NCBI GenBank assembly: GCA_002256345.1
Contig: NKIY01000002.1
Span: 310,001 to 374,000, forward strand
Reading direction: 5' to 3'
Origin: Bradyrhizobiaceae bacterium PARB1
GTDB lineage: Bacteria; Pseudomonadota; Alphaproteobacteria; Rhizobiales; Xanthobacteraceae
DNA length: 64,000 nucleotides
Shown: piece after piece, positions 28,145 to 59,955 of the stretch
Layout: each line of letters starts with the position of its first letter
How positions within the stretch are numbered: the stretch's first letter is position 1
The notes under the pieces: generated by a model
Seen by the model: the letters and a program-made list of their open reading frames with translations, nothing else
Told to the model about the DNA's origin: nothing
Database searches by the model: none
Program-made: the position numbers and the translations under genes

Positions 28145-28164
28145 GATGGGCTCTCCCGTGTGTT

Positions 28165-30866: not shown

Positions 30867-30889
30867 CGAGACGAAAGCGAGGCCGTGCC

Positions 30890-31294
30890 ATGAAACTTTT
30901 TCCCGCAGGTTCGCGTCCGACCAAACGGGCGCCGGAAGAGTATTTCACCGGCACGGTCTGGCAGGATCCGGTCGTCGTCGCCGAAGCGCCCGCGCGGCTG
31001 GTGACATTTCGCGTGAGCTTCGAGCCAGGCGCCCGCACCGCCTGGCACACGCATCCATTCGGCCAGACGCTGTATGTGCTTTCGGGTGTCGGTCGTTTTC
31101 AGACCGGAGGCCAACCGATCGTCGAGCTCAAGCCCGGCGATACCGTCTGGATTCCGCCGGGTGAGAAGCACTGGCACGGTGCTGCACCGACCACGGGCAT
31201 GGTCCATATCGCCATGCAGGAAGCGCTGGACGGCAAGACGGCCGACTGGATGGAGAAGGTAACCGACGAGCAGTATGGAAAGCCCGTCGGTTAG
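30890..31294 (+). CDS. Small cupin-domain protein
   Basis: The 134-residue single-domain cupin has both motifs: first, SFEPGARTAWHTHPFGQTLY with HTH metal ligands, and second, VELKPGDTVWIPPGEKHWHG. The N-terminal EEYFTGTVWQDPVV is seen in the manganese-dependent (R)-mandelonitrile lyase-like/carboxymuconolactone-associated cupins. It probably binds a divalent metal. The 23-bp distance to the RraA-like gene suggests co-expression; its reaction cannot be told. Confidence 0.85.
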   Translation: MKLFPAGSRPTKRAPEEYFTGTVWQDPVVVAEAPARLVTFRVSFEPGARTAWHTHPFGQTLYVLSGVGRFQTGGQPIVELKPGDTVWIPPGEKHWHGAAPTTGMVHIAMQEALDGKTADWMEKVTDEQYGKPVG

Positions 31295-40271: not shown

Positions 40272-40625
40272 TCACTGGCCTGTATTGTCGATCCACACTT
40301 GAGCGTCATCGAGGTGAACGCGAAAACGGCGCAGGGGACGGCTTGGCCATCCCGCCGAAACCTGACCAGTCGCCAGACTGAACGAGGCGCGATGATGCGG
40401 GCAGTATAGCCGCCCATCGGCGACATGACCGCGGCTGAGATCGGCCTGTTCGTGCGGGCAAGCACGTTCGCAGGCGACGACCCTTTCGCCATCTCGAATG
40501 ATCAGAATGCCGACGCCCGCAACAGTGGCGCAGACGATCCGCTGAGTTGTGAGCCTGTCCCGCGTACAGACTGCGACCCAGCGATCCCGATCATCCGCCG
40601 AGATAGGCGCGGCGCACATGTTCAT
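40272..40625 (-). CDS. Rieske-type [2Fe-2S] ferredoxin
   Basis: The 117-residue single-domain protein has the Rieske motifs C-x-H (ERACPHEQADLSRGH) and C-x2-H (GRLYCPHHRASFSLATG), which bind a [2Fe-2S] cluster with two Cys and two His. Small stand-alone Rieske ferredoxins carry electrons to oxygenases or other redox enzymes. Its start lies within the 3' end of livF, a 35-bp overlap, so it is the last gene of the long minus-strand train that begins with the amidohydrolase. No ring-hydroxylating oxygenase is in the window; the molybdenum hydroxylase of the same train is a possible partner. Confidence 0.85.
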   Translation of the reverse strand: MNMCAAPISADDRDRWVAVCTRDRLTTQRIVCATVAGVGILIIRDGERVVACERACPHEQADLSRGHVADGRLYCPHHRASFSLATGQVSAGWPSRPLRRFRVHLDDAQVWIDNTGQ

Positions 40626-41295
40626 TGGCGATCAGTTCGGCGCCGCCGCCAGCAAGAACGACGCGGCCCGATTCCAAGAGATAAGCGTAGTCGCACATGT
40701 CCAGCGCGGCGAAGGCGTTCTGTTCGACCAGCAGCACGGTGGTGCCGCTATCGCGGATCGAACGGATGATGGCGAACGTGCGCTCGACGATGTTCGGTGC
40801 GAGGCCGAGCGAAGGCTCGTCGAACATCACGAGGCGCGGGCGCGACATCAGCGCGCGGCCGATCGCCAGCATCTGCTGTTCACCGCCGGAGAGCGTGCCG
40901 GCCGCCTGCTTGCGGCGCTCTGCGAGCCGGGGAAATTCGGTGTAGATGCGTTCGCGGTCGATGGTGACTTCGCTGGCGTCGGTGCGCAGATAGGCACCCA
41001 TGTCGAGATTTTCTGCCACCGTCATATGCGGGAAAACGCGGCGGCCTTCCGGGCAATGCGCGATGCCTTTGGTCAGCACGCGCTGGGCGCCGATGCCGGT
41101 GATGTCCTCGCCATTGAACGTCATCTTGCCCGCGTGCGCGGGCACTAGGCCGGAGATGGCGCGCAAGGTCGTACTCTTGCCGGCGCCATTGGCGCCGATC
41201 AGAGCGACCAGCTGGCCGGCCTTCACCGAAAGCGAGATGCCCTTGAGGGCGGAGATCTGCCCATAGGTGCAGACCATGTCGCGAATCTCAAGCAT
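40591..41295 (-). CDS. livF: Branched-chain amino acid-type ABC importer ATPase (LivF family)
   Basis: The 234-residue ATPase has Walker A LIGANGAGKST, signature LSGGEQQMLAIGRAL, Walker B LVMFDEPSLGLAP and the switch-His region VLLVEQNAFAALDMCDYAYL, where Asn/Ala follow Gln as in LivF. The alternation ISGLVPAHAGKMTFNGEDIT is typical. It overlaps livG by 8 bp and the Rieske ferredoxin by 35 bp. The system is probably specific for the substrate of the adjoining molybdenum hydroxylase rather than for amino acids. Confidence 0.93.
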   Translation of the reverse strand: MLEIRDMVCTYGQISALKGISLSVKAGQLVALIGANGAGKSTTLRAISGLVPAHAGKMTFNGEDITGIGAQRVLTKGIAHCPEGRRVFPHMTVAENLDMGAYLRTDASEVTIDRERIYTEFPRLAERRKQAAGTLSGGEQQMLAIGRALMSRPRLVMFDEPSLGLAPNIVERTFAIIRSIRDSGTTVLLVEQNAFAALDMCDYAYLLESGRVVLAGGGAELIANEHVRRAYLGG

Positions 41296-42088
41296 GGGCG
41301 GCGATCTCCCTCACGGTGTCCTTGGCGCTCTGGCCGAGATAGGCCTCGATGACCGCCGGATTGCTGCGGATCTCGTCGGGCGGGCCTTCCGCGATGATGC
41401 GGCCGTAGTTGAGTACGACGATGCGATCGGACACGCTCATCACCATCGGCATGTCGTGCTCGACAAGGAGGATGGTGACGCCGCTATCGCGGATGGTGCG
41501 AATGAGCTGCACGAAGGTATGCGTTTCCGAGGCATTCATGCCCGAGACAGGCTCGTCCAGTAGCAGCATGTTCGGCTTCGCTGCCAGCGCCAGTGCGACA
41601 CCGACGAGGCGCTGCTCGCCATAGGAGAGCGAGCCGGCGAGATCATGAGCGCGTGCTTCGAGGCCGACCCAGCGGACGAGTTCAACAGCGCGCTCGCGCA
41701 GCGCCTTTTCGGAGGCGCGGGCGCGCGGCAGGCGGAGGATTGCCTCCATCAGGCCGAGCTTGCCTTGGCGATGCAGGCCGATCAGCACATTGTCGAACAC
41801 GGTGTCGTTGGGAAACACGCTGGTGCGTTGGAATGTACGGGCGAGGCCGAGATCGGCGATGTCGTGCGGCTTCATCCCGCGCAGGTCGCGTCCGCAATAT
41901 TTCACCGCGCCCCTGGTGGGGGTGAGGAAGCCGGTCATGACGTTGAAGGCCGTGGTCTTGCCGGCGCCATTGGGGCCGATCAGGCTGACGATCTCACCTT
42001 TGCCCACATGGAAGTTCATGTCGGAGATGGCAACGAGGCCGCCGAATTGCACGCCGACATGTTCGATGCTGAGGACGGGCTCGGTCAT
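41288..42088 (-). CDS. livG: Branched-chain amino acid-type ABC importer ATPase (LivG family)
   Basis: The 266-residue ATPase has Walker A LIGPNGAGKTT, the LivG-specific ARTFQRTSVFPNDTVFDNVL region, signature LSYGEQRLVGVALAL, Walker B MLLLDEPVSGMN and switch His in LLVEHDMPMVMSVSDRI. The start ATG 42088 overlaps the livM stop by one base. The open frame continues far upstream over livM but is not coding there. Confidence 0.93.
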   Translation of the reverse strand: MTEPVLSIEHVGVQFGGLVAISDMNFHVGKGEIVSLIGPNGAGKTTAFNVMTGFLTPTRGAVKYCGRDLRGMKPHDIADLGLARTFQRTSVFPNDTVFDNVLIGLHRQGKLGLMEAILRLPRARASEKALRERAVELVRWVGLEARAHDLAGSLSYGEQRLVGVALALAAKPNMLLLDEPVSGMNASETHTFVQLIRTIRDSGVTILLVEHDMPMVMSVSDRIVVLNYGRIIAEGPPDEIRSNPAVIEAYLGQSAKDTVREIAAHA

Positions 42089-43128
42089 CACGCATGCTCC
42101 TCGGCGGTACGCTCGGTCACGATGGGCTTCGGCCTGGTCGGTCGCCGTCCGAAGCCAAGCTTCGGCGCCAGCGATGGCACAATTCCGCGCGGCAGCACGA
42201 ACAGGATGGCGATCAGCACGAGGCCATAAGTGATCCATTGTGCTTCCGGCGCCATGATGGGACGCAGGAACACCGGCAACAAGCCGAAGATCACGCCGCC
42301 GACCACAGGGCCTGCGAGCGAGCCTTTGCCGCCTGACACCACCATGATCACCATCGTGACCGTCGAGATGAAGGCGAACACTTCGGGATCGATGATACGG
42401 ATGTAATGCGCGTACAGACTGCCCGCCGCACCCGCGATGGCAGCGGAGATTACCGCCGTCAGCGTCAGCGCCTTGGTGACGTCGATGCCGACTGACACCG
42501 CCAGCGTCTCGTTCTCCATCAGCCCGCGCATGGCGCGGCCGTAATGCGAATGCACGAGGCGGGAGATCAGGAAATAGGAGACCGCGGCCACGGCGAGCAC
42601 GAGGTAGTAATTCTGCAGCTTGGTCTTCAGCACGAGATAGCCGAGGCCGGGGAGGCCGACGGTGATGGACGGAATATTGGTCAGCGCCAGTGGGCCTTGG
42701 GTGAGCTCGATCCAGTTCAGCGCCACCAGCCGCACCACTTCGGCAAAGGAGATGGTGACGATAACGAAGTAGGCGCCACGTACGCGGAACGACAGCCGCC
42801 CGACGAGATAGCCGCACAGGCCTGAGATTACGATGGCAAGCGCCAAACCGGCGATCGGCGGCCATGGCTCATGCACGATACGGAAACCGCCGATCAACTC
42901 AACATCGAAGCCGAGCGCCGTGAGCGCGCTGACATAAGCGCCAATGCCGAAGAAGGCGATATGCCCCAGGCTCAGTTGCCCGGTGAAGCCGAGCAGCAGG
43001 TTCATGCTCATGGCGCCGATGATGAAGATGCCGGTCGTGATCAGCGCATTGAGCAGATACGGGTCCTTCAGCCACAGCGGTACCGAGGCGAAGATGGCGA
43101 GGGCGAGGAGAGAGACAATCCTGGTCAT
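42088..43128 (-). CDS. livM: Branched-chain amino acid-type ABC importer permease (LivM family)
   Basis: The 346-residue permease has eight to ten membrane segments and the LivM pattern: SMNLLLGFTGQLSLGHIAFF, GIGAYVSALTAL, a central charged loop with MRGLMENETLAVSVGIDVTK (the EAA-like coupling region), and GGKGSLAGPVVGGVIF. The C-terminus is a basic cytoplasmic tail (KLGFGRRPTRPKPIV). It overlaps livH by 4 bp. Confidence 0.93.
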   Translation of the reverse strand: MTRIVSLLALAIFASVPLWLKDPYLLNALITTGIFIIGAMSMNLLLGFTGQLSLGHIAFFGIGAYVSALTALGFDVELIGGFRIVHEPWPPIAGLALAIVISGLCGYLVGRLSFRVRGAYFVIVTISFAEVVRLVALNWIELTQGPLALTNIPSITVGLPGLGYLVLKTKLQNYYLVLAVAAVSYFLISRLVHSHYGRAMRGLMENETLAVSVGIDVTKALTLTAVISAAIAGAAGSLYAHYIRIIDPEVFAFISTVTMVIMVVSGGKGSLAGPVVGGVIFGLLPVFLRPIMAPEAQWITYGLVLIAILFVLPRGIVPSLAPKLGFGRRPTRPKPIVTERTAEEHA

Positions 43129-43997
43129 CCGACACGCTCCGCACGGGCAAACAAGCCGGTGGGTTTGAAGACCAGCACGGCAATGATGATGAGGAAGCCC
43201 ATGGCGTCGCGATAACCCGACGACACGTAGCCGGCGCCGAGTTCTTCGGCGAGTGCCAGGATGAAGCCACCGATCACGGCACCAGTGATGTTGCCGAGGC
43301 CGCCGAGGATCACGATGGCGAATGCCTTCACCGCGGCGAGGTCGCCCATTTGCGGGAACACGACATAGACCGGACCGAGCAGTGCGCCCGCGGCGGCGGC
43401 AAGACTCGATCCGATGGCAAAGGTCGAGGTGTAGATCCAGCCGACATTGACACCCATCAGTGCGGCGGTGTCAGAATCCTGGAAGGCTGCGCGCATCGCC
43501 TTGCCGAGCTTGGTCAGGTTGATTAGCGAATATGCGGCCACGATCAACAACGCGGCGGCGAACAGCACGAACAGGCGCAGCCACGAGACCGAGACCGGGC
43601 CGATCACCAGCGGTGCATCGGGGAAGGGATTGTCGATGGATTTCGCGACGCCACCCCATATCCACAGCGCGCCGGACTGCATGGCGATCCAGGCGCCGAT
43701 CATCACCAGCATCGTCGTGTCGATATCGGCGCCGCGCAGCGGGCGCAGCAGCGTGATTTCGATGGCGGCGCCGAGCAGCCAGCCGGCGACGATCGCGACC
43801 GGCAGCGCGAGAAAGAAGTTCAGGCCCAGCTGATGCACGACGATGAACATCATATAGGCGCCGAACGTGTAGAGAATGCCGTGGGTGAAATTCACCACAT
43901 TCATGATGCCGAAGATCAACGTCAGGCCGATACCGAGCAGGGCGTAGGTGCCGCCGAGCACGAGCATGTTGACGACATGTTGGAGAAGCTGGTCCAC
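43125..43997 (-). CDS. livH: Branched-chain amino acid-type ABC importer permease (LivH family)
   Basis: The 290-residue permease has the LivH signatures GLTLIFGIMNVVNFTHGILY, the coupling loop KAMRAAFQDSDTAALMGVNV, and VILGGLGNITGAVIGGFILA. It is separated from the upstream binding-protein gene by 82 bp containing a strong hairpin, and overlaps livM by 4 bp. Confidence 0.93.
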   Translation of the reverse strand: MDQLLQHVVNMLVLGGTYALLGIGLTLIFGIMNVVNFTHGILYTFGAYMMFIVVHQLGLNFFLALPVAIVAGWLLGAAIEITLLRPLRGADIDTTMLVMIGAWIAMQSGALWIWGGVAKSIDNPFPDAPLVIGPVSVSWLRLFVLFAAALLIVAAYSLINLTKLGKAMRAAFQDSDTAALMGVNVGWIYTSTFAIGSSLAAAAGALLGPVYVVFPQMGDLAAVKAFAIVILGGLGNITGAVIGGFILALAEELGAGYVSSGYRDAMGFLIIIAVLVFKPTGLFARAERVG

Positions 43998-44028
43998 GGT
44001 GAATCCGGAAATTCGAGATGAAGGGCAG

Positions 44029-44058
44029 TCTCTCTCCGCTCAGCGAAGCGGAGAGAGA
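44029..44058 (-). promoter_or_regulatory. 12-bp intercistronic hairpin between binding-protein gene and livH
   Basis: TCTCTCTCCGCT (44029-44040) and AGCGGAGAGAGA (44047-44058) pair perfectly around CAGCGA. Neither strand has a following T-run, so it is probably not a full terminator. In binding-protein-dependent transporter operons a hairpin at this position often protects the upstream mRNA from 3' decay or partly attenuates it, giving more binding protein than permease. Confidence 0.6.
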
Positions 44059-44079
44059 TAGTTCAGTGTCTCGTGAAGA

Positions 44080-45234
44080 TCACAGGTCCTTCATGTGGAT
44101 CTTGCCGTCAGCGATCTCGACCAGATAGACGTTCGGGAAGCTCTGGCCACTCTCGGAGCCAGCCGGGCCCGACTTCTTGAAGATGATGTCGCCGTTCAAG
44201 CCCTTGACGTCGATCTTCCAGAGCGCGTCCTTGATCGCCGCCGGCTCGGCCTTGCCGGCCTTCTCGATCGCAGCTGCAATGGTTCGGATGCCGTCATAGC
44301 CGCGGAAGCTCTCGGTGCAGCCAGCGAAATCGTAGCCGCGCTTCTTCCACTCGGTGATGAAATAGGCAGTGGCTTCCGGGTTCGGGGTCTTTTCGGGCAT
44401 CCAGGGGAGGAACGTCGTCAGATGCATGGTGTTGTTCGCCGCGGCGCCAGCCTGGGCGATGATCTGGTCGGGATTCTGTGAACCGCCGGTGGTGATGATA
44501 CGTTTCTTGAAGCCGAGAGCAGCGGCCTGTTTGAAGATAAGCGTCAACTGATCGACGGCGGCGGTGATGATCACCGTCTCCGAATCCGTCGCTTTGATCT
44601 TGGCGAGTTGGGCGCTCATGTCCTGCGCCGACTGGTCCATGGTCTCGGTGAGGCCGATGGTGATGCCCTTTTCCTTCATCATCTTGCTGAAGTCTTCGGC
44701 GGTGCCGCGGCCCCAGTCATTGTTGATGACGAGGAAGTCCACCTTCTTGAGCGCCAGCTTGTCGACGATGTTCTTGAACGCAGCGGCTTCAACAAAAGAG
44801 GGCGGTGAAATGCGGAAGACATAGGGATTGCCGGAGGTGGTGATCTTCGAGGCCGAGGAGGTCTCGACCACCATCGCGGTTTCGTATTCCACCAGCTTCG
44901 GCATCACAGCGAGCGTCAGGCTTGAGCCCCAGGCACCGAGCAGCACCGGCGTCTTGTCGCGGGTAATCAGCTTTTCTGCGACGGCAGCAGCTTCCGTCGG
45001 ATTGCTCTTGTTGTCTTCGATGACGAGTTCGATCTTCTTGCCGAGCACGCCGCCCTTGGCATTGATCTCGTCGGCGGCGATCTTGGCGCCGTTGACGACA
45101 TAGGTGCCCGATGCAGCGAAGGCGCCGGTCAGCGGCTCATTAACGCCGATCTTGATGGTCTGCGCAAAGGCCGTACTGCCGAGCATGGCGAGCGCGAATG
45201 CCGTTGCGGTGGCAGCCTTGAATGTTTGTATCAT
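44080..45234 (-). CDS. Branched-chain amino acid-type ABC substrate-binding protein
   Basis: The 384-residue periplasmic protein has a Sec signal (MIQTFKAATATAFALAMLGS, cleaved after AFAQ) and the type I LivJ-like fold: IKIGVNEPLTGAFAASGTYV, AADEINAKGGVLGKKIELVI, KLITRDKTPVLLGAWGSSLT, and a Trp-Gly-Arg-Gly ligand-loop region. ATG 45234 has GGAGGA upstream. It follows the CoxS-CoxG fusion gene by 79 bp on the same strand. The ligand is unknown; the context suggests the substrate of the molybdenum hydroxylase and amidohydrolase. Confidence 0.9.
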   Translation of the reverse strand: MIQTFKAATATAFALAMLGSTAFAQTIKIGVNEPLTGAFAASGTYVVNGAKIAADEINAKGGVLGKKIELVIEDNKSNPTEAAAVAEKLITRDKTPVLLGAWGSSLTLAVMPKLVEYETAMVVETSSASKITTSGNPYVFRISPPSFVEAAAFKNIVDKLALKKVDFLVINNDWGRGTAEDFSKMMKEKGITIGLTETMDQSAQDMSAQLAKIKATDSETVIITAAVDQLTLIFKQAAALGFKKRIITTGGSQNPDQIIAQAGAAANNTMHLTTFLPWMPEKTPNPEATAYFITEWKKRGYDFAGCTESFRGYDGIRTIAAAIEKAGKAEPAAIKDALWKIDVKGLNGDIIFKKSGPAGSESGQSFPNVYLVEIADGKIHMKDL

Positions 45235-45313
45235 GTGGTCCTCCAGTGAAACGCTGATGAAACTTGAAACGCGCCAAACTCGCCGTCGCACACGATGTGC
45301 AAGCGTCGATCCC

Positions 45314-46516
45314 TCATGTCGCTCTTCCGCGTCCGGTGAGCCGTTGCAGCAATCGTGCCGCACGGTCCCGCAACAAGCCGAAGACGAGCGAAATTCCGTT
45401 CAGGTCTGCCGTCGCAGCAGGTGCAGATGTGGTGCCTCCCGACAGACTCCGGTCGAGATTTCCGGCGAACTCCGCGACCAGCCGCGCCGCGAGATCGCGC
45501 ACGAGGCCGCTGCGTCCGATCTGTGCCAGCATGCCAGTTAGGCTGTAGCCGATACCGAGTTCGACACGCGTTGCCGTGCCGTTGGTCTCGGGCACGAGCC
45601 GATAGCGGATTTCGCCTTGCGTCGTGGAGCGGCTGCGCTGGTCATTACCGATGCCGATGATGCGGCCGGCGAAATTTTCTTCGTCACGCTCGACACGCGC
45701 CGCGCCGTTGAAGTTGGCAGAGATCGGCCCGATCTTGACCTTGATGGCGCCTTCGACGCGTTCGGGGCGCGGCGTTCCGTTCAGCGTCGCGCCGGGAAGG
45801 CACGACGCGACGGCCGCGATATCGTCAAACAGAGCGAACACCTGTGCCGGCGGATGCGCGACAGTGAATTGCTGCTCCATCACCGTCGATGGTGTGAAGT
45901 CGGGGATCTCGAGCGGCGCGCCGGAGCTCGCAGCTTCCGCAACTGCCGGCTTCGCCGGTGCGAGCTTCTGCGAAGCCGTGCATGCCGCGTGGCCCGAACC
46001 GGCCGGGCCCAGCGCTGTGCGCCCGGCACTCGGCATCGCCGGGATATCCCGTGCCCGCCGTGCCTCGATCACCGATTTTACGGCGCGCACGATTCCGACA
46101 TAGCCCGTGCAGCGACAAAGATTACCAGACATGCCAACGCGGATCGCCTTGTCGTCGGGCTCATGCAGGCGCAGTACGAGATCGCGTGCCGACACCAGCA
46201 TGCCCGGCGTGCAATAACCACACTGCAGCGCATGTTCGCGGGTAAAGGCAGCGCGCAGTTCGGTGGCGATCTCGTCGTCGTCGAGGCCTTCGATCGTCGT
46301 GACGTCGGCACCATCGCAGGCAAGGGCGTAAGTGATGCAAGAGCGTGTCGGTACGCCATCGACAAGGATGGTGCAGGCGCCGCAGACGCCGTGCTCGCAA
46401 CCGAGATGCGTCCCGGTCAGATCCAGCGTATCGCGCATCATGTCGGCGAGGCTGGTGCGCGGCTCGATGGCTTTTTGCACGCTGCGCCGGTTGACGGTGA
46501 GTTCGACGGTATTCAT
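45314..46516 (-). CDS. Molybdenum hydroxylase [2Fe-2S] subunit fused to CoxG/SRPBCC domain
   Basis: The 400-residue protein joins two parts. Residues 1-155 are a CoxS-type subunit with a plant-type [2Fe-2S] site (C40, C45, C48, C60; LGCEHGVCGACTILVDG) and the second cluster (C99, C102, C134, C136; QCGYCTPGM, GNLCRCTGYVGIVRAV). After an Ala/Pro linker (about 156-205), residues about 212-350 form a CoxG-like SRPBCC domain (FTVAHPPAQVFALFDDIAAV, ASCLPGATLNG, GAIKVKIGPISANFNGAARV). A basic amphipathic tail ends the protein. In CO dehydrogenase operons CoxG is a separate membrane-associated protein; here it is covalently attached. It overlaps coxM by 4 bp. Confidence 0.9.
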   Translation of the reverse strand: MNTVELTVNRRSVQKAIEPRTSLADMMRDTLDLTGTHLGCEHGVCGACTILVDGVPTRSCITYALACDGADVTTIEGLDDDEIATELRAAFTREHALQCGYCTPGMLVSARDLVLRLHEPDDKAIRVGMSGNLCRCTGYVGIVRAVKSVIEARRARDIPAMPSAGRTALGPAGSGHAACTASQKLAPAKPAVAEAASSGAPLEIPDFTPSTVMEQQFTVAHPPAQVFALFDDIAAVASCLPGATLNGTPRPERVEGAIKVKIGPISANFNGAARVERDEENFAGRIIGIGNDQRSRSTTQGEIRYRLVPETNGTATRVELGIGYSLTGMLAQIGRSGLVRDLAARLVAEFAGNLDRSLSGGTTSAPAATADLNGISLVFGLLRDRAARLLQRLTGRGRAT

Positions 46517-47346
46517 GCAGCCTCCGCGACAGCTTTGCGGAGCACCGCGACATGGATGTACCGGTCGGCGGCGTCGGTCATACCGGCTGCGACGAGGAGT
46601 CGGTCGGCGACGCGAGCGTCGAAACGCGACTTGAACGCACCATCGATCCTGCCGCCGAAGAATTCCGCGGCGTCATCGACCACCACGGGTGCGGCCTCGA
46701 CGGCGCCGATGACGATGCGTGCCTTGCCCGCATCAGGATCGATCAGCACTGCCCCGATGGCATGGGCGAATTCGCCGGTCTTGCGGCAGCTCTTCACATA
46801 GGCCCAACGTGCTGCCGGCGACATCACCGGCACATGCACGGCTTCCAGCATTTCGCCGGGCTCGATCACGCTTTCCAGCGCGCCGAGGATGAAATCCTTC
46901 ATCGCCACGCGGCGCGTGCCCCTGGCGCTGCGCAGCGTCAGCGACGCGCCGAGCGCCGTGAGCGACGACACCCAGTCGGCAGAGGGATCGGCATGGCTGA
47001 GCGAACCGCCAACCGTGCCGCGATTGCGTACGGCACGGTAAGCGATATTGGCAGCTACGCGCTGCATCGCGCCGCGCGTAACGTCCGGGACGCGACCGTC
47101 CTCGATATCGGCGTGGGTGATGCAGGCGCCGAGCGTTAGTTCGCTGCCGTTGACATCCGCGCGCTTCAGCTCAGCGATGCCGGTGATGTCCAGGATCGTG
47201 TCGGGAGCGACGAGGCGGAGATTGAGCATCGGGCCGAGTGACTGGCCGCCGGCGATGATCTTCACCGTACCGTCCGCAGCATTCATCACCGCCAGGGTCG
47301 AGGCGATGTCGCGCGGGCGCTCGTAGTTGAATGGCGCGGGCTTCAT
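46513..47346 (-). CDS. Molybdenum hydroxylase FAD-binding medium subunit (CoxM/XdhB-like)
   Basis: The 277-residue FAD subunit has the two binding segments of the family, IIAGGQSLGPMLNLRLVAPD and RNRGTVGGSLSHADPSADW, and a C-terminal CO-dehydrogenase flavoprotein domain (GAVEAAPVVVDDAAEFFGG). It passes electrons from the [2Fe-2S] clusters to the final acceptor. It overlaps both the large-subunit gene and the Fe-S/CoxG gene by 4 bp, consistent with a stoichiometric complex. Confidence 0.93.
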   Translation of the reverse strand: MKPAPFNYERPRDIASTLAVMNAADGTVKIIAGGQSLGPMLNLRLVAPDTILDITGIAELKRADVNGSELTLGACITHADIEDGRVPDVTRGAMQRVAANIAYRAVRNRGTVGGSLSHADPSADWVSSLTALGASLTLRSARGTRRVAMKDFILGALESVIEPGEMLEAVHVPVMSPAARWAYVKSCRKTGEFAHAIGAVLIDPDAGKARIVIGAVEAAPVVVDDAAEFFGGRIDGAFKSRFDARVADRLLVAAGMTDAADRYIHVAVLRKAVAEAA

Positions 47347-49724
47347 GCGGCCGGCCTTTCCGCATCGCGTGCTTCGATGATGGCCTCGACGATCCGTTTC
47401 GGCGTGATCGGCGAATGCAGCATCTCAACTTTGAGACCGCGCAGCGCGTCGTTGATTGCATTGCCGATGGCGGCCGGCGGCGCGATGGCGCCGCCTTCGC
47501 CGATGCCCTTGACGCCGAACTTGGTGTAGGGCGACGGCGTCTCCATGTGATCGAGCCATGGCTCCGGCACTTCGGTCGGGCCGGGCAGGAGGTAGTCGGC
47601 GAGCGTGGTGTTGAGCGGCTGGCCGGCGCGGTCGAACGGCATCTCCTCATAGAGTGCGGTGCCGATGCCTTGCGCGAGGCCGCCATAAATCTGGCCATCG
47701 ACGATCATTGGATTGACCAGCACGCCGCCGTCTTCGACAATGACGTAATCGAGGATCTCGACATCGCCGAGATCGGGATCGATAGCTACGGTGACTGCAT
47801 GCGCCGCATAGCTGAATGTGCCGGTATCGCGCTTCGGCTTGTAACCGGACGTCGCCTCGAGCCCGGCGGGATCGACGTCACCGGGCAGATCCTGTGGGCG
47901 GCGATACCAGGTATGGGCGATTTCCTTCAGGGTTACGCTGCCATTCGGCCCGCGGATCTCGCCGTCCGCCAGCACGACGCTGGCTTCGTCCACCTGCAGC
48001 AGCTTGGCGCCGATCTTCTTGGCGCGCTCGGCGAGTTCGTGACATGCCGTCGCGACGGCGCCGCCGGCCATCACCATGGCGCGCGATCCCCAGGTGCCGG
48101 TCGAGTAGGGAGTCATGGTCGTATCGCCATGAACGAGCCTGATCCTGGCGATGTCCACGCCGAGCAATTCATTGGCGACCTGAGCCATGGTGGTTTCCAT
48201 GCCCTGGCCGTGCGAATGCACGCCAATGCGCAGTTCAAGCCCGCCATCCGGCGTCAGGCGCGCAGTCGCCTGCTCGTGGCCGGGCACCATGGGAATGCCC
48301 CAGCCGGAATAGACCGAGGTGCCATGCGCAGCCTGTTCGCAATAGATCGACAGCCCGACGCCGATCAGGCGGCCATCATCTTCACCCTTGCGCTGGCGTA
48401 CCCGGATGCTGTCGATATCGATCTGCTTCAACGCACGGCGCATCGCTTCGGGATAGTCGCCGCTGTCGAAATGTTTTTTGGTGATGTTGTCGAACGGCAT
48501 CTGCTCTGGTTGCGGCAAATTGCGCAGGCGCACCTCGCCGGGTTCGAGCCCGGCTTCCACGGCAACCAGATCCAGCATCAGTTCGAGCGCGAAGCAGACG
48601 CCCGTGCGGGCTACGCCGCGATAGGGCAAGATCGGGCACTTGTTGGTCGCCACCGAAAATGTGCGACAGCGATAGGCCGGCATCTTGTAAGGGCCGGGCA
48701 GGATGCTGACGACTTGCGCCGCTTCGAGGCAGGCCGAGAACGGATAGGACGAGTAAGCGCCGGAATCGACCAGTGCCTCGCAGTCGATGCCGCGCAGCGT
48801 GCCGTCGCGATCGGCATAGACGGTGATCTTGTAGAAATGCTCGCGGCAATTCGCGGCGGCCGTGAGGTGTTCGCGGCGATCCTCGATCCAGCGCACCGGG
48901 AAGCCACGCTTCATGGTCAGCCACGACAGACACACTTCCTCGGGCAGCAGGATGCCCTTGTGTCCGAAGCCACCGCCGACGTCGGGCGAGACGATCCTGA
49001 TCTGTCCCTGATCCATCTCAAGGCAATCGGACAGGCCGTTGCGCACGATGTGCGGCATCTGGCTGCCCGAATAGAGCGTGAGCTGATCAAGACGATGATC
49101 GAATGTGGCAACGACACCCCGACCTTCCAGCGGCGACATGCACTGCCGCGCGGTCGAGATCTCGCGCGTCACCTTGATCGGCGCATCGAAAGCGGAATCG
49201 ATATTGGTTTCGAAGAAGCTTTCGAGGAAGACGTTGTCGCTCCAGTGCTCATGAACCAGCGGCGCGCCCGGTTCGAGCGCCTTGCGCATATCGTAGACGG
49301 CGGGCAGCTCTTCGAGATCGAGCGTGACGGAGGCAGCAATATCTTCCGCCTCCGCACGCGTCGGCGCGACGCACATGGCGATCAGCTCGCCGACCTGGCG
49401 CACTTTGCCGGTGGCGAGGATCGGCTGGTCAGACACCTTGAAGCCGGTGAGCGACGTTACGGCGCGGATTGGCTTGATGCCGACGAGATCATCGGCCGTG
49501 AACACCACATCGCGATAGCGTTCGGGAACATGAATCCCCTTGATGCGGGCATGGGCGAGAGGGCTGCGCACAAAGGCGACGTCCTGCAACCCGGCCAGGC
49601 GGATATCGCCGACGAATTGCCCGCGGCCGCGCATCAGGCGGTCATCCTCCTTGCGGGGCACGCGCGCGCCGACACCCTGCCGTGAGGCAGGGCTGGCTGG
49701 CGCGATGTCTCGCTCGTTGCGCAT
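47343..49724 (-). CDS. Molybdenum hydroxylase large subunit (xanthine dehydrogenase family)
   Basis: The 793-residue protein has the ald_Xan_dh N-terminal domain (VPRKEDDRLMRGRGQFVGDI) and the molybdopterin-binding domain. Visible cofactor motifs are VSPDVGGGFGHKGILLPEE, VHSHGQGMETTMAQVANELL, TGTWGSRAMVMAGGAVATAC and the catalytic Glu in VKGIGEGGAIAPPAAIGNAI. The active-site loop reads PYRGVARTG, unlike the AYxCSFR loop of form I CO dehydrogenase, so the substrate is an organic ring or aldehyde and not CO. ATG 49724 (MRNERDIAP) is preferred to an upstream start at 49760. A long ORF on the opposite strand is a composition artefact. Confidence 0.93.
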   Translation of the reverse strand: MRNERDIAPASPASRQGVGARVPRKEDDRLMRGRGQFVGDIRLAGLQDVAFVRSPLAHARIKGIHVPERYRDVVFTADDLVGIKPIRAVTSLTGFKVSDQPILATGKVRQVGELIAMCVAPTRAEAEDIAASVTLDLEELPAVYDMRKALEPGAPLVHEHWSDNVFLESFFETNIDSAFDAPIKVTREISTARQCMSPLEGRGVVATFDHRLDQLTLYSGSQMPHIVRNGLSDCLEMDQGQIRIVSPDVGGGFGHKGILLPEEVCLSWLTMKRGFPVRWIEDRREHLTAAANCREHFYKITVYADRDGTLRGIDCEALVDSGAYSSYPFSACLEAAQVVSILPGPYKMPAYRCRTFSVATNKCPILPYRGVARTGVCFALELMLDLVAVEAGLEPGEVRLRNLPQPEQMPFDNITKKHFDSGDYPEAMRRALKQIDIDSIRVRQRKGEDDGRLIGVGLSIYCEQAAHGTSVYSGWGIPMVPGHEQATARLTPDGGLELRIGVHSHGQGMETTMAQVANELLGVDIARIRLVHGDTTMTPYSTGTWGSRAMVMAGGAVATACHELAERAKKIGAKLLQVDEASVVLADGEIRGPNGSVTLKEIAHTWYRRPQDLPGDVDPAGLEATSGYKPKRDTGTFSYAAHAVTVAIDPDLGDVEILDYVIVEDGGVLVNPMIVDGQIYGGLAQGIGTALYEEMPFDRAGQPLNTTLADYLLPGPTEVPEPWLDHMETPSPYTKFGVKGIGEGGAIAPPAAIGNAINDALRGLKVEMLHSPITPKRIVEAIIEARDAERPAA

Positions 49725-49763
49725 CGACAGACTCCCAATATCTTTCGGTTCGGCGTGCAAAGC

Positions 49764-51041
49764 TCAGGCCGCGACGGCCTGAGGCAGGATTGGGGCGATG
49801 GCGTCGTAACGAACGCCGCTGCGCATGCAGAAAGCCGGCTGCAGCAGGCCTTCGGAGACAGTTTTGGTGTCCTCATTGTCGCGCAGGATGAACTTGCCGG
49901 GGATTTGCGAGATCACCGAAACGTCCGCATCCATTCCGGCTTTCAGCGAGCCGATCTTATCGGACAGGCCGATCATCTTCGCCGGGTTCGATGTCACCAT
50001 CGGCACCACCTGTTCGAGCGTAAGGCCAAGCGCCATCATCGAACTCATCGCCTGGACCAGGCTGAATTTCGCCTGGCCCTTGAACGGATGGTTCTCGTCA
50101 TCCTCGTGCTCGTCGGGCGTACCGGCAGGAGCGGGCACTTCGGTGTTGTAACCGTGGATGTCGGCACCGAGCGTGTTCGGCACGATGCCGGCGGCTATCG
50201 CCTTCTTGGCGAGGCGATAGGAGAAGTGGCTGCCATGGCCGACATCGATCTTGAGGCCGCGATCGATCGCGGCCTGGATCACCGGATGAACTTCGCCCTC
50301 GCGATTGACGAAGCCGCCGGGATGCCGCGTGAACGGATGCGCGAGCACGTCGCCTTCCTTGAGCAGCGGGATCACGCGCTCCAGGATCGTATCGACATCC
50401 TCGCCATTGGTGCCGCTTTCCGGCAGGCCCCAGAGCTGGCCGAAATGCACATAGACCGGCAGCTCGGCGCGCTTGCCGATTTCCGCCGCCATCTCAATCA
50501 CGCGGATGCCCCAGCGGGCGAAGCCGCCGATCTCGGCATGCGCCTTGATCCCGCGCACGAGATCGCGATTGGCGACGGCGGATTTCACCGTCGCGTCGAT
50601 ATCGACGCAATCGGGGCTGTAGAGATTGGGATAGAAGTGGCCCTCGAGCCCGCCGACGAGATAGGCCGACAGAAATGCGTAAACCCTGGATTTTGCCGGC
50701 TCCGCGATGAAATGACGGAAGCCGGGCAGGGTCATGCAGGACGGGCCGCCTTGATCGATCAGCGTGGTGACACCAGACTGCACGCCCACCATGTCTGGAT
50801 TCATGCCGAAGCGGCCGGAGACATATTGAAAGACGTGGCCATGGGTATCGATCAGGCCCGGCAGCACCAGCTTGCCGGTGACGTCGATCACCTCGCGTGC
50901 GCTCGTCGGAAGAATGTCGGACTGCACCGCGGCGATCTTGCCGCCCCGGATGGCGACATCCTTCATGCCGTCGATACCGGCAGCGGGATCGATGACGCGG
51001 CCGCCGCGCAGCAGGATGTCGTATGAGGCAGTAACGGACAT
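49764..51041 (-). CDS. Amidohydrolase / deacetylase-family metallohydrolase
   Basis: The 425-residue enzyme belongs to the dihydroorotase-like amidohydrolase group. The metal-binding pattern is readable: VLPGLIDTHGHVFQ (HxH), a lysine in VRGIKAHAEIGG that may be the carboxylated bridging ligand, the histidines in YVHFGQLWG and LAHPFTRHPGG, and the terminal metal aspartate in LGADIHGYN. Substrates of this group are cyclic or acyclic amides, ureas and N-acyl compounds. As first gene of the train, 39 bp ahead of the large subunit, it probably hydrolyses either the hydroxylase product or the imported precursor. ATG 51041 (MSVTASYDILLRGGRV) is the family start. Confidence 0.9.
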   Translation of the reverse strand: MSVTASYDILLRGGRVIDPAAGIDGMKDVAIRGGKIAAVQSDILPTSAREVIDVTGKLVLPGLIDTHGHVFQYVSGRFGMNPDMVGVQSGVTTLIDQGGPSCMTLPGFRHFIAEPAKSRVYAFLSAYLVGGLEGHFYPNLYSPDCVDIDATVKSAVANRDLVRGIKAHAEIGGFARWGIRVIEMAAEIGKRAELPVYVHFGQLWGLPESGTNGEDVDTILERVIPLLKEGDVLAHPFTRHPGGFVNREGEVHPVIQAAIDRGLKIDVGHGSHFSYRLAKKAIAAGIVPNTLGADIHGYNTEVPAPAGTPDEHEDDENHPFKGQAKFSLVQAMSSMMALGLTLEQVVPMVTSNPAKMIGLSDKIGSLKAGMDADVSVISQIPGKFILRDNEDTKTVSEGLLQPAFCMRSGVRYDAIAPILPQAVAA

Positions 51042-51097
51042 GATCGGTCTCCAGAATTTTTCGCGCTCGTTTCTTCCGCGTTTTCTCACGCACCGGA

Positions 51098-51121
51098 AAA
51101 TACGAAGCATGCTTCGTATTT
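51098..51121. promoter_or_regulatory. Perfect 24-bp palindrome, probable MarR operator
   Basis: The half-site AAATACGAAGCA (51098-51109) is followed directly by its exact reverse complement TGCTTCGTATTT (51110-51121). It lies 57 bp before the amidohydrolase start and 74 bp before the MarR start, in the shared divergent promoter region. MarR dimers typically bind such 16-24-bp palindromes. Control of both directions by the adjoining MarR protein is the obvious reading. Confidence 0.75.
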
Positions 51122-51194
51122 GACTAAAGCAAGGGGCGTGCCATTATTGACGAAGCGCAATTCACCGGCGCTGGCCGGTCGCGGGAGATGCAAG

Positions 51195-51689
51195 TTGTCG
51201 GCAAACAAAACGACGCGTGGCGGCGCTGCGCACAAACCCTGGCCGCTGGAACAGCGGCCGGGCTATCTGATCCGACGACTGCATCAGATCCATGTGGCTC
51301 TCTTTCAGGAAGCCTGCACGGATTTCGAAATGACGCCGTTGCAATACAGTCTGCTGTCGGCGCTCGCGGTGCGCGGAACCGCTGATCAGACCAGCTTGGC
51401 CGCTGATATTGCTCTGGATCGGACGACGACCACTGGCGCGCTGAAGCGCCTGGAAGCTCGTAAGCTGGTCGAGCGGCCGGTAAGCGACGATGATCGACGG
51501 GCGCGCGTCTGTAAGCTGACGGCCGCCGGGGCATCGCTGCTGAGCAAGATCGAGGGCGCAGCGCGCGAGGCCCATCGCGAGACGCTGGCGCCGCTCAGCC
51601 GGGCGGAGCAGGAGCTCTTTCTCGCGATGATGCAGCGCATCGTGGTCGATCATGCCGACCGTATGCGCGGTTCCGAGGCGCCGATTTGA
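51195..51689 (+). CDS. MarR-family transcriptional regulator
   Basis: The 164-residue winged-helix regulator shows the MarR pattern: YLIRRLHQIHVALFQEACTD (dimerisation helix), MTPLQYSLLSALAVRGTADQ, recognition region DRTTTTGALKRLEARKLVER, and wing SDDDRRARVCKLTAAGASLL. TTG 51195 has GGGAGA at 7-base spacing and removes an unrelated basic stretch. A TTG at 51120 overlaps the palindromic operator and is unlikely. Divergent from the amidohydrolase-hydroxylase-Liv train, it is the likely ligand-responsive repressor of that unit. Confidence 0.88.
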   Translation: MSANKTTRGGAAHKPWPLEQRPGYLIRRLHQIHVALFQEACTDFEMTPLQYSLLSALAVRGTADQTSLAADIALDRTTTTGALKRLEARKLVERPVSDDDRRARVCKLTAAGASLLSKIEGAAREAHRETLAPLSRAEQELFLAMMQRIVVDHADRMRGSEAPI

Positions 51690-52281: not shown

Positions 52282-53199
52282 CTAGCGCCCGCGCCAATAT
52301 TGCCAAGGCGGTGGATCAGGGAATGCGAGTTTAAGAAAGTCCAGAAAGACGCGCACGCGGTTACTCAACAATCGCCGGCTCTGATACACGGCATAGATCG
52401 GGTGCTCTTCGGGGCATTGATGCTCTGGAAACAGTTCGATCAACCGGCCCTGCGCGAGATCGTCAGCGATCTGCGTCTCTATCAGCCTTACGATGCCGAG
52501 CCCTGCACGAGCGAATTGGATCAGGACAGAAGCCTGGTTCGAGCGAATCCGGCTTTTGACGGAAAGCGGGGCGGACTGCCCGTCCTCGCCGCGGATTGTC
52601 CAGGTGCTTGCCGCGATCGACGCATGGAAATTGAGACAGGCGTGTTGCGCCAGTTCCCGCGGATGCGACGGGATGCCGTGCTCTGCTAGATAGTCCGGCG
52701 ATGCGCAGATGATCCAGCGCGTGCTGGTAAAGCGCGTGGCCACCAGCGAGCTATCGCTGAGATGTCCGACATGAATCGTAACATCGGTGCCTTCATCGAG
52801 CAGCGGGCCGGGATCGATACGCAGTTGAATCTCGACCTGCAGGTCGGGATGGGCGCGACAGAAATCAGGAAGTTTTTGCGCCAGCACCGTCTGGCCGAAG
52901 ATGGGCATTGAGCGGATGCGCAGCGTTTCACCGCCGAGCTTGCCGTTGAAGACCGTGGCGTCCGCGGCCTCGACGGCTTCGATGGCGGAAAGAGCGGCCT
53001 GATAGAACAGTTCACCCTCGGGCGTCATGACGATGTTGCGGTGCGCACGGCGAAACAGAAGCGCGCCGACGCGCTCTTCCAGGCGCGAGACCAGCTTGCT
53101 CACCGCCGACGGTGTGATGGCGAGGTTTCGCGCTGCAGCGGAAAAGCTGCCGTCCTCTGCCGCCCTCACGAAAACCAGCATCTCGGTGTAGCGGTTCAC
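52282..53199 (-). CDS. LysR-type regulator of the Baeyer-Villiger gene cluster
   Basis: The 305-residue protein has a LysR helix-turn-helix (EMLVFVRAAEDGSFSAAARN, ITPSAVSKLVSRLEERVGAL) and an effector domain of the PBP2_CrgA-like class (WIICASPDYLAEHGIPSHPR). GTG 53199 gives the usual N-terminus (NRYTEMLVFVR); a TTG at 53217 would add six residues. It is divergent from the Baeyer-Villiger monooxygenase gene with a dyad between them (53220-53236), the standard layout for autoregulation and activation of the neighbour. Confidence 0.9.
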   Translation of the reverse strand: MNRYTEMLVFVRAAEDGSFSAAARNLAITPSAVSKLVSRLEERVGALLFRRAHRNIVMTPEGELFYQAALSAIEAVEAADATVFNGKLGGETLRIRSMPIFGQTVLAQKLPDFCRAHPDLQVEIQLRIDPGPLLDEGTDVTIHVGHLSDSSLVATRFTSTRWIICASPDYLAEHGIPSHPRELAQHACLNFHASIAASTWTIRGEDGQSAPLSVKSRIRSNQASVLIQFARAGLGIVRLIETQIADDLAQGRLIELFPEHQCPEEHPIYAVYQSRRLLSNRVRVFLDFLKLAFPDPPPWQYWRGR

Positions 53200-53219
53200 G
53201 TTTTCTCTTGTGACCAAAA

Positions 53220-53236
53220 TTCACATCAGGTGTGAA
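53220..53236. promoter_or_regulatory. Dyad in the LysR/BVMO intergenic region, candidate LysR site
   Basis: TTCACA-TCAGG-TGTGAA is a perfect 6-bp inverted repeat with 5-base spacer, located just upstream of the LysR start and about 100 bp before the monooxygenase start. The position fits a LysR recognition site used for autorepression and for activation of the divergent gene. The exact T-N11-A spacing is not met. Confidence 0.5.
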
Positions 53237-53333
53237 GGATAGAGTATGGAAAGCCATCCGGCAAATCTCTAGCCTTCGATTCAACAGGATGCGGTGCGCT
53301 GTAGCCGCCAAGAAACGAAACGGGAGATGAGCC

Positions 53334-54971
53334 TTGGCCATCAAGGAGAGCGCCGCATCTGCGGTGAATGCTGCGCCGCGTCAACTCGACGCCATTATCA
53401 TCGGCGCCGGATTTTCGGGCCTCTATCAACTACACAAATTGCGCGACGATCTCGGCTTGAATGCGGTGGTGCTGGAGAAAGCCGATGGCATCGGCGGCAC
53501 CTGGTACTGGAACCGTTATCCCGGCGCGCGCTGCGACTCCGAGAGCTACTATTACTGTTACTCCTTCAACAAGGAGATCGAACAGGAGTGGAGCTGGAGC
53601 GAGCGTTATCCCGAACACCCCGAGATCAGAAAATATCTGAACTTCGTCGCCGACAAGCTCGATCTCAAGCGCGACATCAGACTGAATACGGAAGTCTCTT
53701 CTGCCGTATTCGACGATACGGCCAATATCTGGACGGTGCGGACCAAGAGCGGCGAGACATTCTCGGCGCCATTCCTCATCACCGCCGTGGGTTGTCTCTC
53801 GACGGCCAATGTTCCGGAAATGAAGGGTCTCGAGACATTCGAGGGCCAGTGGTACCATACCGGCCTGTGGCCCCAAGACGGCGTCAACTTTGCCGGCAAG
53901 CGGGTCGGCCAGATTGGTACCGGATCGACGGGCATCCAGGCGGCGCCCGTCATTGCCGAACAGGCCAGGCATCTCACGGTGTTTCAGCGCACTGCCAATT
54001 ACAGCATTCCGGCCCGCAACGGTCCGGTCACAGCCGAGGACGTCAGGCATACCCGCGAGAATTACGACGAGATCTGGCGGCTGGCGCGTGCCGGCACCAA
54101 CGGTCATCCGTTCACCATTTCGACGCAGTCGGCATTGTCCGTGTCCGAAGCCGAGCGGCAGGGCATCTATGAGAAAGCATGGGAGCGCGGCGGATTGCGT
54201 TTTCGCGCATCTTTCTCGGACGTGCTGCAGAATGCCGATGCTAATCTTACAGCGTCCGACTTTCTCCGCAGCAAGATCAAGGAGGTGGTCAAAGATCCTG
54301 CGATCGCCGAGATGCTGACGCCCTATGATCATGGCTTTGCCACCAAGCGCCCACCGATCGACAGCGGCTACTTCGAGACCTTCAATCGCGACAATGTGCT
54401 GCTGGTCGATATCAAAGCGGAGCCGATCGTCGAGATCACCCCGAGGGGTATTCGCACCACGAAGCAGCAATACGAGCTCGATATCATCGTCTTTGCTACC
54501 GGCTTTGATGCGCTGACGGGACCGCTCGTCAACCTCAATATCAGCGGCAGCGACGGCGCCAGATTGAAGGACGAGTGGTCGGCCGGGCCGCGGACCTATC
54601 TCGGATTGCAATCGCCGAAATTCCCGAACCTGTTTACCATTACCGGCCCGGGCAGTCCGTCGGTGCTATGCAATATGCCGATCGCCATCGAGCAGCACGT
54701 AGACTGGATTACGGAGTGCATTCGCGCGATGCGCGCTAATGGGCACATGCGCATCGAGGCCGATGCGGATTCCACTGAGAAATGGGTTGCGCATGTGAAC
54801 GAAGCTGCCGACGCTACTCTGCTGCCGATGGCCAGTTCCTCGTGGTATCTCGGCGCCAATGTGCCCGGCAAGCCGCGTGTCTTCATGCCCTATGCCGGTG
54901 GGTTCGCGCGCTACACGGCCATCTGCGACGACGTTGCACAGAGCGGCTATCGCGGTTTTGCGCTGAGTTAG
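53334..54971 (+). CDS. Baeyer-Villiger flavin monooxygenase, cyclohexanone monooxygenase type
   Basis: The 545-residue FAD/NADPH enzyme inserts oxygen next to a ketone carbonyl to give a lactone or ester. It has the FAD motif IIIGAGFSGLYQL (residues 21-33), GIGGTWYWNRYPGARCDSES, the BVMO fingerprint FEGQWYHTGLWP (169-180; F-x-G-x3-H-x3-W-P) and the NADPH motif GTGSTGIQ (195-202). FATGFDALTG is the C-terminal family motif. The start is a TTG with GGGAGATGA upstream; no better start is visible. It is the first gene of a plus-strand unit with a Liv-type importer and two short-chain dehydrogenases, which suits cyclic alcohol to ketone to lactone oxidation. Confidence 0.93.
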   Translation: MAIKESAASAVNAAPRQLDAIIIGAGFSGLYQLHKLRDDLGLNAVVLEKADGIGGTWYWNRYPGARCDSESYYYCYSFNKEIEQEWSWSERYPEHPEIRKYLNFVADKLDLKRDIRLNTEVSSAVFDDTANIWTVRTKSGETFSAPFLITAVGCLSTANVPEMKGLETFEGQWYHTGLWPQDGVNFAGKRVGQIGTGSTGIQAAPVIAEQARHLTVFQRTANYSIPARNGPVTAEDVRHTRENYDEIWRLARAGTNGHPFTISTQSALSVSEAERQGIYEKAWERGGLRFRASFSDVLQNADANLTASDFLRSKIKEVVKDPAIAEMLTPYDHGFATKRPPIDSGYFETFNRDNVLLVDIKAEPIVEITPRGIRTTKQQYELDIIVFATGFDALTGPLVNLNISGSDGARLKDEWSAGPRTYLGLQSPKFPNLFTITGPGSPSVLCNMPIAIEQHVDWITECIRAMRANGHMRIEADADSTEKWVAHVNEAADATLLPMASSSWYLGANVPGKPRVFMPYAGGFARYTAICDDVAQSGYRGFALS

Positions 54972-55134
54972 CCGCTGAGGATTCGAAAGTCGTTGGACAG
55001 CGCGCCGTTCATGCGGCACGATCTTGCAAGCGAGATGATAACGTCAGGAAAGGAAATAAACGGACTACGACGCTGATTTCAAAATAATAAAATCCGTACC
55101 GGCAAAGCCGGACATCAAAATCAGGGAGGGTTCA

Positions 55135-56397: not shown

Positions 56398-56489
56398 TAC
56401 CCCACCGAGGCGTTATCGCACGATGGCGCCTTGAGGGCCGGGCCGGCTTTGCAGCTCCGCCAGACCTCCGGTCCGCCGTCCGCGGCGGC

Positions 56490-56507
56490 CGGAGCATGCT
56501 TGCTCCG
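56490..56507 (+). promoter_or_regulatory. 7-bp intercistronic hairpin between binding-protein gene and livH
   Basis: CGGAGCA-TGCT-TGCTCCG forms a perfect 7-bp stem with a 4-base loop 20 bp before the GTG start of the permease gene. No T-run follows. It occupies the same place as the hairpin at 44029-44058 in the other Liv operon and may likewise set a high ratio of binding protein to permease. Confidence 0.5.
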
Positions 56508-56527
56508 ATCATCGAAGGACCGCCGCC

Positions 56528-59920: not shown

Positions 59921-59955
59921 CCGCGCAACCAAGAAACGCAGAAAGGAGTGCAGTG

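Follow-up and report, generated by a model that had tools for sequence, protein, structure and literature searches.

Which compound does a bacterium consume when it encodes a molybdenum (Mo) hydroxylase, a metal-dependent amidohydrolase and an importer of its own in one train of genes behind a MarR-family regulator? This question is raised by positions 40272 (stop codon of a Rieske ferredoxin gene) to 51121 (end of a palindrome) of a 64,000-nucleotide stretch, here called the window (G000:C26:310001-374000), in the 6.95 Mb genome of Bradyrhizobiaceae bacterium PARB1. A preliminary description held that the unit takes up an N-heterocycle or cyclic amide, hydroxylates it and opens the ring. Comparison with related loci supports a substrate of this type and narrows it to a ureide ring, given an NCS1 permease gene under the same operator and genes for AllG, HpxZ/AtzH, UAAP/DUF1989, RidA and a phosphoribosyltransferase in relatives; the substrate itself we infer. 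On balance we lean towards a catabolic unit under MarR control whose substrate is a cyclic ureide: a nucleobase-like ring with an N-CO-N unit, of the pyrimidine or hydantoin kind. This class is preferred because the recurring partners (NCS1, AllG, HpxZ/AtzH, AtzE/AtzF, UAAP1/2) handle N-acyl ureas or close analogues, and N-acyl ureas are what remains of a pyrimidinedione or hydantoin after hydrolysis of the lactam.

The gene train and its candidate operator

The unit consists of a divergent regulator gene, a palindrome and ten minus-strand genes, listed here in the order of the minus strand:
51120..51689, plus strand: divergent MarR-family regulator (PF01047); open frame with an uncertain start, perhaps TTG 51195
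51098..51121, no strand: perfect 24 bp palindrome, candidate MarR operator, with the core TRCGAAGYATRCTTCGYA
49764..51041, minus strand: COG3964-type amidohydrolase (NF006689, 427 bits against a cut-off of 371) with the expected metal-ligand residues intact
47343..49724, minus strand: CoxL-type Mo hydroxylase large subunit (domain match) with a PYRGVAR signature
46513..47346, minus strand: CoxM-type subunit (PF00941) for flavin adenine dinucleotide (FAD)
45314..46516, minus strand: fused CoxS (2Fe-2S) and CoxG (SRPBCC-type) subunit (PF01799, PF00111, PF06240)
44080..45234, minus strand: Peripla_BP_6 substrate-binding protein (SBP; PF13458) with Gln229
44029..44058, minus strand: RNA hairpin of 13 bp in the gap between the SBP gene and livH (z-score -3.23 in a 96-nucleotide stretch)
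43125..43997, minus strand: LivH-type permease (PF02653)
42088..43128, minus strand: LivM-type permease (PF02653)
41288..42088, minus strand: LivG-type ATPase (PF00005, PF12399)
40591..41295, minus strand: LivF-type ATPase (best NCBIfam match LivF, 265 bits, under the cut-off of 441)
40272..40625, minus strand: Rieske [2Fe-2S] ferredoxin (PF00355)

As judged by sequence comparison, the association of these genes is real and robust. A locus search based on the amidohydrolase kept 80 of 85 relatives, nearly all from Bradyrhizobium, Tardiphaga and Rhodopseudomonas; among the named relatives found, a Tardiphaga metagenome-assembled genome is closest, with 98% identity in the amidohydrolase. The 68 loci with at least 8.5 kb of upstream and at least 10 kb of downstream sequence were counted, and the other 12 were excluded. 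All ten genes plus MarR occur in 58 of the 68, every time in the order and strand of the window. The MarR gene is present in 67, a Rieske orthologue in 60 and a complete Liv set in 59.

A chance proximity of importer and enzymes is highly improbable. Liv importers are common, a complete set is missing from 9 of the 68 loci, and the 80 loci are close kin and hence not independent; against an accident stand the constant order in 58 loci, the exchange of importers under one operator (see below) and two outliers with other arrangements. In Enterovirga (L070) all ten genes lie together, rearranged in order and strand and without MarR. In a Hyphomicrobiaceae genome (L078) nine of the ten lie together in differing order and strand, with no Rieske gene found in its 10.9 kb. 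That the genes stay together despite rearrangement argues for a function beyond common descent alone. The proposal that importer, Mo hydroxylase and amidohydrolase form one unit under MarR is strongly supported by the kept order and the common operator.

The head of the train carries the divergent MarR gene and the perfect palindrome named in the preliminary description. The palindrome AAATACGAAGCATGCTTCGTATTT is perfect across its 24 bp, and promoter-like hexamers at 51120-51147 (consensus match only) adjoin it. MarR and the train diverge from a common promoter region that holds the conserved palindrome, the arrangement of a MarR-type divergent operon. The core lies at the head of the amidohydrolase gene in 76 of the 80 loci; of the four others, L067 and L074 are on contigs that start at the gene or within it, and L070 and L078 are the outliers described above. 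It also heads the train in three genomes of the same taxonomic order (L106, L132, L133). Fourteen farther stretches gave just two stray matches, with 4 mismatches.

A scan of 1.585 Mb of related loci with up to 3 mismatches returned 145 operator matches, 143 of them with at most 2. Eleven shuffled patterns gave 1-10 matches each, all with at least 2 mismatches, and the reversed pattern gave 2. Against this background, the two matches with 3 mismatches (L008, L049) weigh little alone. The 145 matches comprise 97 at heads and 39 that immediately precede an NCS1 permease gene; the remaining 9 lie upstream of a nitroreductase operon (seven labelled as such, plus those of L019 and L049, labelled 'other' and placed upstream of the nitroreductase gene). 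On this pattern evidence, the palindrome defines a regulon that reaches beyond the train in relatives. In the PARB1 genome the 18-bp core, searched with up to 2 mismatches, occurs at one place with 0 mismatches. This uniqueness says little, because the backwards control also gave one match; the single site does suggest that MarR probably controls only the ten-gene unit and itself here.

Importers are exchanged beneath one conserved operator, with Liv, NCS1 and SBP3 types in the different loci. NCS1 permeases transport nucleobases and hydantoins. The NCS1-type gene of the relatives (PF02133, 'cytosine/purines, uracil, thiamine, allantoin') scores below the curated ncs1 cut-off. It is found in 42 loci, 39 of which have the operator at the permease promoter; in L008 and L043 the permease gene lies directly behind coxSG, and L006 has no operator match at its NCS1 gene. 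A further variant operon combines genes for a nitroreductase and an importer of the amino-acid type (SBP3) with those for RidA and for DUF1989 proteins, of which there are two or three. With the nitroreductase and SBP3 genes taken as its markers, it is present in 8 of the 9 loci without a complete Liv set and in none of the 59 with one; L066 has neither. The nine loci with an operator at the nitroreductase operon show no Liv orthologue. Two of three DUF1989 proteins tested exceed the cut-off of UAAP1 or UAAP2, families named for their association with urea amidolyase, and one does not. The nitroreductase passes its Pfam model and reaches the cut-off of no NCBIfam equivalog. Nitroreductase and RidA proteins are also part of the Rut pyrimidine pathway; unlike that pathway, the variant RidA exceeds the Rid-family cut-off and stays under that of RutC, and no RutA above cut-off was found in the genome of the window.

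The genes of the window are tightly packed. They number ten on the minus strand rather than the nine counted before; the earlier coordinates and gene names agree with the coordinates found here and with the domain searches. The amidohydrolase and CoxL genes are 39 nucleotides (nt) apart, given a CoxL start at ATG 49724. The CoxL/CoxM, CoxM/CoxS-CoxG and LivH/LivM pairs each overlap by 4 nt, LivM/LivG by 1 nt (4 nt with a GTG start for LivG), LivG/LivF by 8 nt and LivF/Rieske by 35 nt. Gaps of 79 and 82 nt flank the SBP gene. The hairpin in the latter region, matched in stability by 1 of 200 shuffles of its stretch, perhaps serves to hold the SBP message above the permease message. A consensus scan found no promoter-like site on the minus strand (2 sites in total, both on the plus strand, against 2.5 in shuffles), a result that decides nothing on internal promoters.

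Two further genes were observed in relatives. A BD-FAE-type alpha/beta hydrolase gene lies inside or beside the unit in 47 of the 68 loci, in many of them downstream of the Rieske gene (for example L106:8248-9114 and L132:8354-9238, with the family assigned from L106); no match was found within the window. In L010 a gene of the ureidoglycolate/sulfolactate dehydrogenase family (L010:11345-12412), below all equivalog cut-offs, stands directly behind the amidohydrolase gene at the place of the missing coxL.

Enzymes and importer of the unit

What chemistry would these proteins allow? With Mo, FAD and 2Fe-2S subunit domains and the catalytic glutamate present, the hydroxylase belongs to the xanthine oxidase superfamily. 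CoxL was aligned in 17 orthologues including that of the window; an eighteenth, 33% identical row from L120 was set aside. The motifs QMPH (one QQPH), GGGFG[HY]K[GA], P[YF]RGVAR[TS] and GE[GS]GAI are kept, the last in all 17 orthologues and absent from the L120 relative. Because these catalytic motifs are kept, the CoxL-type enzyme looks competent.

Two better-known identities were rejected for CoxL. Form I CoxL proteins of aerobic CO dehydrogenases carry the copper motif AYXCSFR; the window has PYRGVAR in its place, and scores reach 555 bits against a cut-off of 950 and 465 against 991. Canonical xanthine dehydrogenase (XDH) is excluded by the best XDH model (350.7 bits, cut-off 780) and by a different motif. 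Within GGGFG[HY]K[GA], glycine or alanine occupies the position of the purine-binding glutamate (bovine Glu802). Across the genome 15 proteins match the CoxL/XDH large-subunit model, none above the TIGR02965 cut-off.

Three-part Mo hydroxylases of this kind include the enzymes of nicotine and caffeine breakdown. QorMSL and its like share subunit types and catalytic motifs with the unit, which differs from QorMSL by its CoxS-CoxG fusion, its linked amidohydrolase and Liv importer, and PYRGVAR. CoxG has a role as a quinone or membrane link. Among solved structures CoxL best matches quinoline 2-oxidoreductase (484 bits), with YRGV and the catalytic glutamate common to both, and a Mo hydroxylase for picolinate is known to be under a MarR repressor. 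Both facts speak for a heteroaromatic substrate of the pyridine or quinoline type without a urea unit, which the Mo enzyme would hydroxylate and whose later lactam the amidohydrolase would open, or from which it would remove an acyl group. We nevertheless regard such a substrate as unlikely: no ring-cleaving dioxygenase was recognised in the flanks read by eye or in the clusters recurring in at least six loci, and the recurring partners belong to ureide and nucleobase families.

The amidohydrolase exceeds the NF006689 cut-off and stays below that of TIGR03583. HxH, Lys, His, His and Asp stand at the expected metal-binding positions in all 22 aligned sequences. Its domain matches are PF07969 and PF01979 only, so that it lies outside the AtzD/barbiturase family PF09663, and the equivalogs of dihydroorotase, hydantoinase and allantoinase were far below cut-off among the best 25 of 68 families. 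The structure model (mean predicted local distance difference test, pLDDT, 55.3) is too weak to use. The closest solved relatives are 8wzy (145.4 bits) and 2ogj (138.6 bits), the latter being Atu3266. The window enzyme shares the broad COG3964 family and the metal ligands with Atu3266 and EF0837, at low similarity (138.6 bits to 2ogj).

Acetyl-(R)-mandelate esterase activity is known in the COG3964 family. The amidohydrolase, encoded by the first gene of the train, might then act first as an Atu3266-like esterase or deacylase, and the Mo enzyme would oxidise what it releases, such as an aldehyde or a hydroxy acid. The place at the front of the train, the family assignment with its closest solved relatives and the known activity of the family favour this order of events. 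We consider it distinctly unlikely in view of scores of only 145.4 and 138.6 bits and of the partners in relatives, which are NCS1, AllG, HpxZ and UAAP.

At the domain level the Liv/HAAT set of the window is complete, with an SBP, two permeases and two ATPases; its genes do not reach the equivalog or subfamily cut-offs of LivHMGF. Gln229 of the SBP is invariant in 14 aligned sequences, and the amino-acid binders 4gnr, 3td9 and 3ip5 have glutamate there. This residue corresponds to Glu226 of the E. coli leucine/isoleucine/valine-binding protein (LIVBP), which holds the alpha-amino group. The place of the carboxylate-site threonine (LIVBP Thr102) decides nothing: the window has Ala128 there and relatives have Ala or Ser, of which Ser could do the same job, and the alignment with 3ip5 is off by one residue. 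Amino-acid import was set aside as less likely given the exchange of Glu for Gln at 229, a mild argument against an alpha-amino acid and minor evidence. The SBP model (mean pLDDT 67.6, with a poor N-lobe) is too weak to use.

Ureide genes in relatives and in the PARB1 genome

Does the ureide context persist beyond close kin? Samples of 385 genomes at class level and 398 at phylum level contained the amidohydrolase at E <=1e-60 in 19 and 11 cases, with the genome of the window and a few others counted in both; 18 distinct genomes lie outside the taxonomic order of the window. Stretches of about 7-31 kb were read, those of G028, G236 and G342 farther than the others. Twelve of the 18 contain a CoxL orthologue of at least half coverage, and that of a thirteenth (G080) is truncated at the edge. 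Ten encode AllG (PF06545, oxamate carbamoyltransferase subunit) near the amidohydrolase. A phosphoribosyltransferase, MarR and a Rieske protein occur in 6 each; CoxM accompanies CoxS-G in 5, and 2 encode an amidase as well as HpxZ. The names AllG and HpxZ refer to oxamate and oxalurate steps. In L107-L113 the CoxL orthologue adjoins the amidohydrolase, with no CoxM or CoxS detectable in the stretch read.

The most complete example is G028 (L117, L135), with the order AtzF, peptide-type importer and LysR (both by eye), amidohydrolase, CoxL-CoxM-CoxSG, MarR, AllG, Rieske, phosphoribosyltransferase, Liv importer, amidase and HpxZ. AtzF (allophanate hydrolase) exceeds its cut-off in L117, as does HpxZ in L131 and L135. 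The AtzD-AtzG-AtzE-AtzH-AtzF operon for cyanuric acid resembles this stretch in that HpxZ/AtzH, an amidase and AtzF stand beside the amidohydrolase/CoxL pair. G028 differs from it in that no AtzD was recognised by eye, the amidase stays under the AtzE cut-off, and a COG3964 amidohydrolase is present instead, along with a Mo hydroxylase.

The genome of the window itself encodes AtzF, AtzE and HpxZ, each over its cut-off, together on another contig (L147:105-9575, G000:C22). This ureide module also holds a peptide-type importer. The AtzD family PF09663 gave no match in the genome, in a search whose positive control was silent. Hydantoinase and hydantoin racemase genes are found in 9 and 8 of the 68 loci, neither with a copy of the operator; their relatives in the PARB1 genome, with 66% and 69% identity, are found on a different contig (L144).

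One distant locus, L120, raises the question of whether the unit belongs to purine (xanthine/urate) catabolism proper. Its amidohydrolase gene (49% identity) lies within a urate/allantoin cluster (9146-17761) of genes for a xanthine permease, AllA, allantoicase, PuuE-UraD, 5-hydroxyisourate (HIU) hydrolase and a PcaD/RutD-like hydrolase, and XDH-like subunits are encoded as well. Yet the L120 enzyme, at 367.3 bits, falls just under the cut-off of 371 and two of its motifs differ, the CoxL relative is only 33% identical and no orthologue, and the CoxL of the window misses the curated XDH cut-offs. A purine role for the whole unit is accordingly improbable in our estimate; the L120 amidohydrolase possibly serves a new step of purine catabolism.

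Several observations weigh against a cyclic ureide. The ureide clues come mostly from relatives: AllG and DUF1989 were not found in the genome of the window, where positive controls worked, and an NCS1 permease gave no match there in a search without positive control. A dihydropyrimidinase/D-hydantoinase exceeds its cut-off in this genome, which makes a reductive pyrimidine route possible. L010 and L066 retain amidohydrolase, MarR and operator without CoxL. Among the 18 distant genomes, 7 have CoxL and amidohydrolase with CoxM and CoxS absent from the stretch read, some on short contigs, and 5 have no CoxL orthologue in the stretch (G298, G376, G157, G553, G654). In L131 and L135 the amidases exceed the cut-off of NF006169 ('amidase') and fall short of that of AtzE. 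AllG may have another role than in E. coli, where its partners are AllF and AllH. Finally, the characterised COG3964 enzymes are esterases, and the best structural match of CoxL, noted above, is a quinoline enzyme.

Two neighbouring clusters of the window were read by eye. Positions 26270-31294, about 9 kb from the train, encode an amidase/formamidase-like protein, three 5-oxoprolinase PxpABC-like proteins and RraA-like and cupin proteins, and form another cyclic-amide module. Positions 52282-61564 encode LysR, a flavin monooxygenase of the Baeyer-Villiger (BVMO) type, a second Liv-type importer and two short-chain dehydrogenases/reductases (SDR); L001 retains the LysR, monooxygenase and importer part.

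A possible route and its implications

How might a cyclic ureide be degraded by this unit? LivFGHM and the SBP would import the ring, and binding of a ligand to MarR would relieve repression. CoxL/CoxM/CoxS-G would hydroxylate a carbon adjoining nitrogen, with electrons passing via FAD and 2Fe-2S; the CoxG domain and the Rieske ferredoxin are candidates for the connection to the respiratory chain. The new lactam would be hydrolysed to an acylurea by the metal-dependent amidohydrolase, and general ureide enzymes encoded at the other locus (AtzE, HpxZ/AtzH, AtzF) could finish the acylurea. Uracil and thymine would be the best fit to Mo-hydroxylase chemistry. Some Bradyrhizobium loci have neighbouring genes that agree with hydantoin, and L120 agrees with purines.

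A comparable logic is described for oxidative pyrimidine degradation, in which barbiturate is converted to malonate and urea (PMC3758960). This route, by barbiturase (Bar) and ureidomalonase, likewise combines hydroxylation next to nitrogen with opening of the ring amide to an acylurea, and the same source calls it rare, judged by homologues of AtzD/Bar (PMC3758960). The known barbiturase has the AtzD fold, in contrast to the COG3964 amidohydrolase that is the ring-opening candidate here. AtzE, AtzH and AtzF act on carboxybiuret, dicarboxyurea and allophanate, and atzG-atzE-atzH clusters without atzD are described with their role unproven (PMC6219798). We view barbiturate as the carbon analogue of cyanurate and ureidomalonate as that of carboxybiuret; by this analogy, Atz-type finishing enzymes would fit a pyrimidine route by chemistry. 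A more specific and rather doubtful version of the ureide reading is that CoxL/CoxM/CoxS-G is a dehydrogenase of the uracil/thymine type and the COG3964 enzyme a second, metal-dependent barbiturase unrelated to AtzD.

An operon for a Mo hydroxylase of N-heterocycles is a known kind; the regulon is unusual, and among the papers listed by searches of open-access literature none joins these elements. The operator offers a simple handle, since one motif marks the regulon, and the unit provides specific candidates for an amidohydrolase family that is poorly understood and for one of the many paralogues of the 'xanthine dehydrogenase family'. If the specific version holds, many strains of Bradyrhizobium, Tardiphaga and Rhodopseudomonas would degrade pyrimidines oxidatively by means of a MarR regulon with exchangeable importers, and acylurea breakdown would suggest itself as an ancestral role of HpxZ/AtzH-type modules. 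Should the unit indeed perform oxidative pyrimidine chemistry, this route would be common in soil Bradyrhizobiaceae and would so far have been missed.

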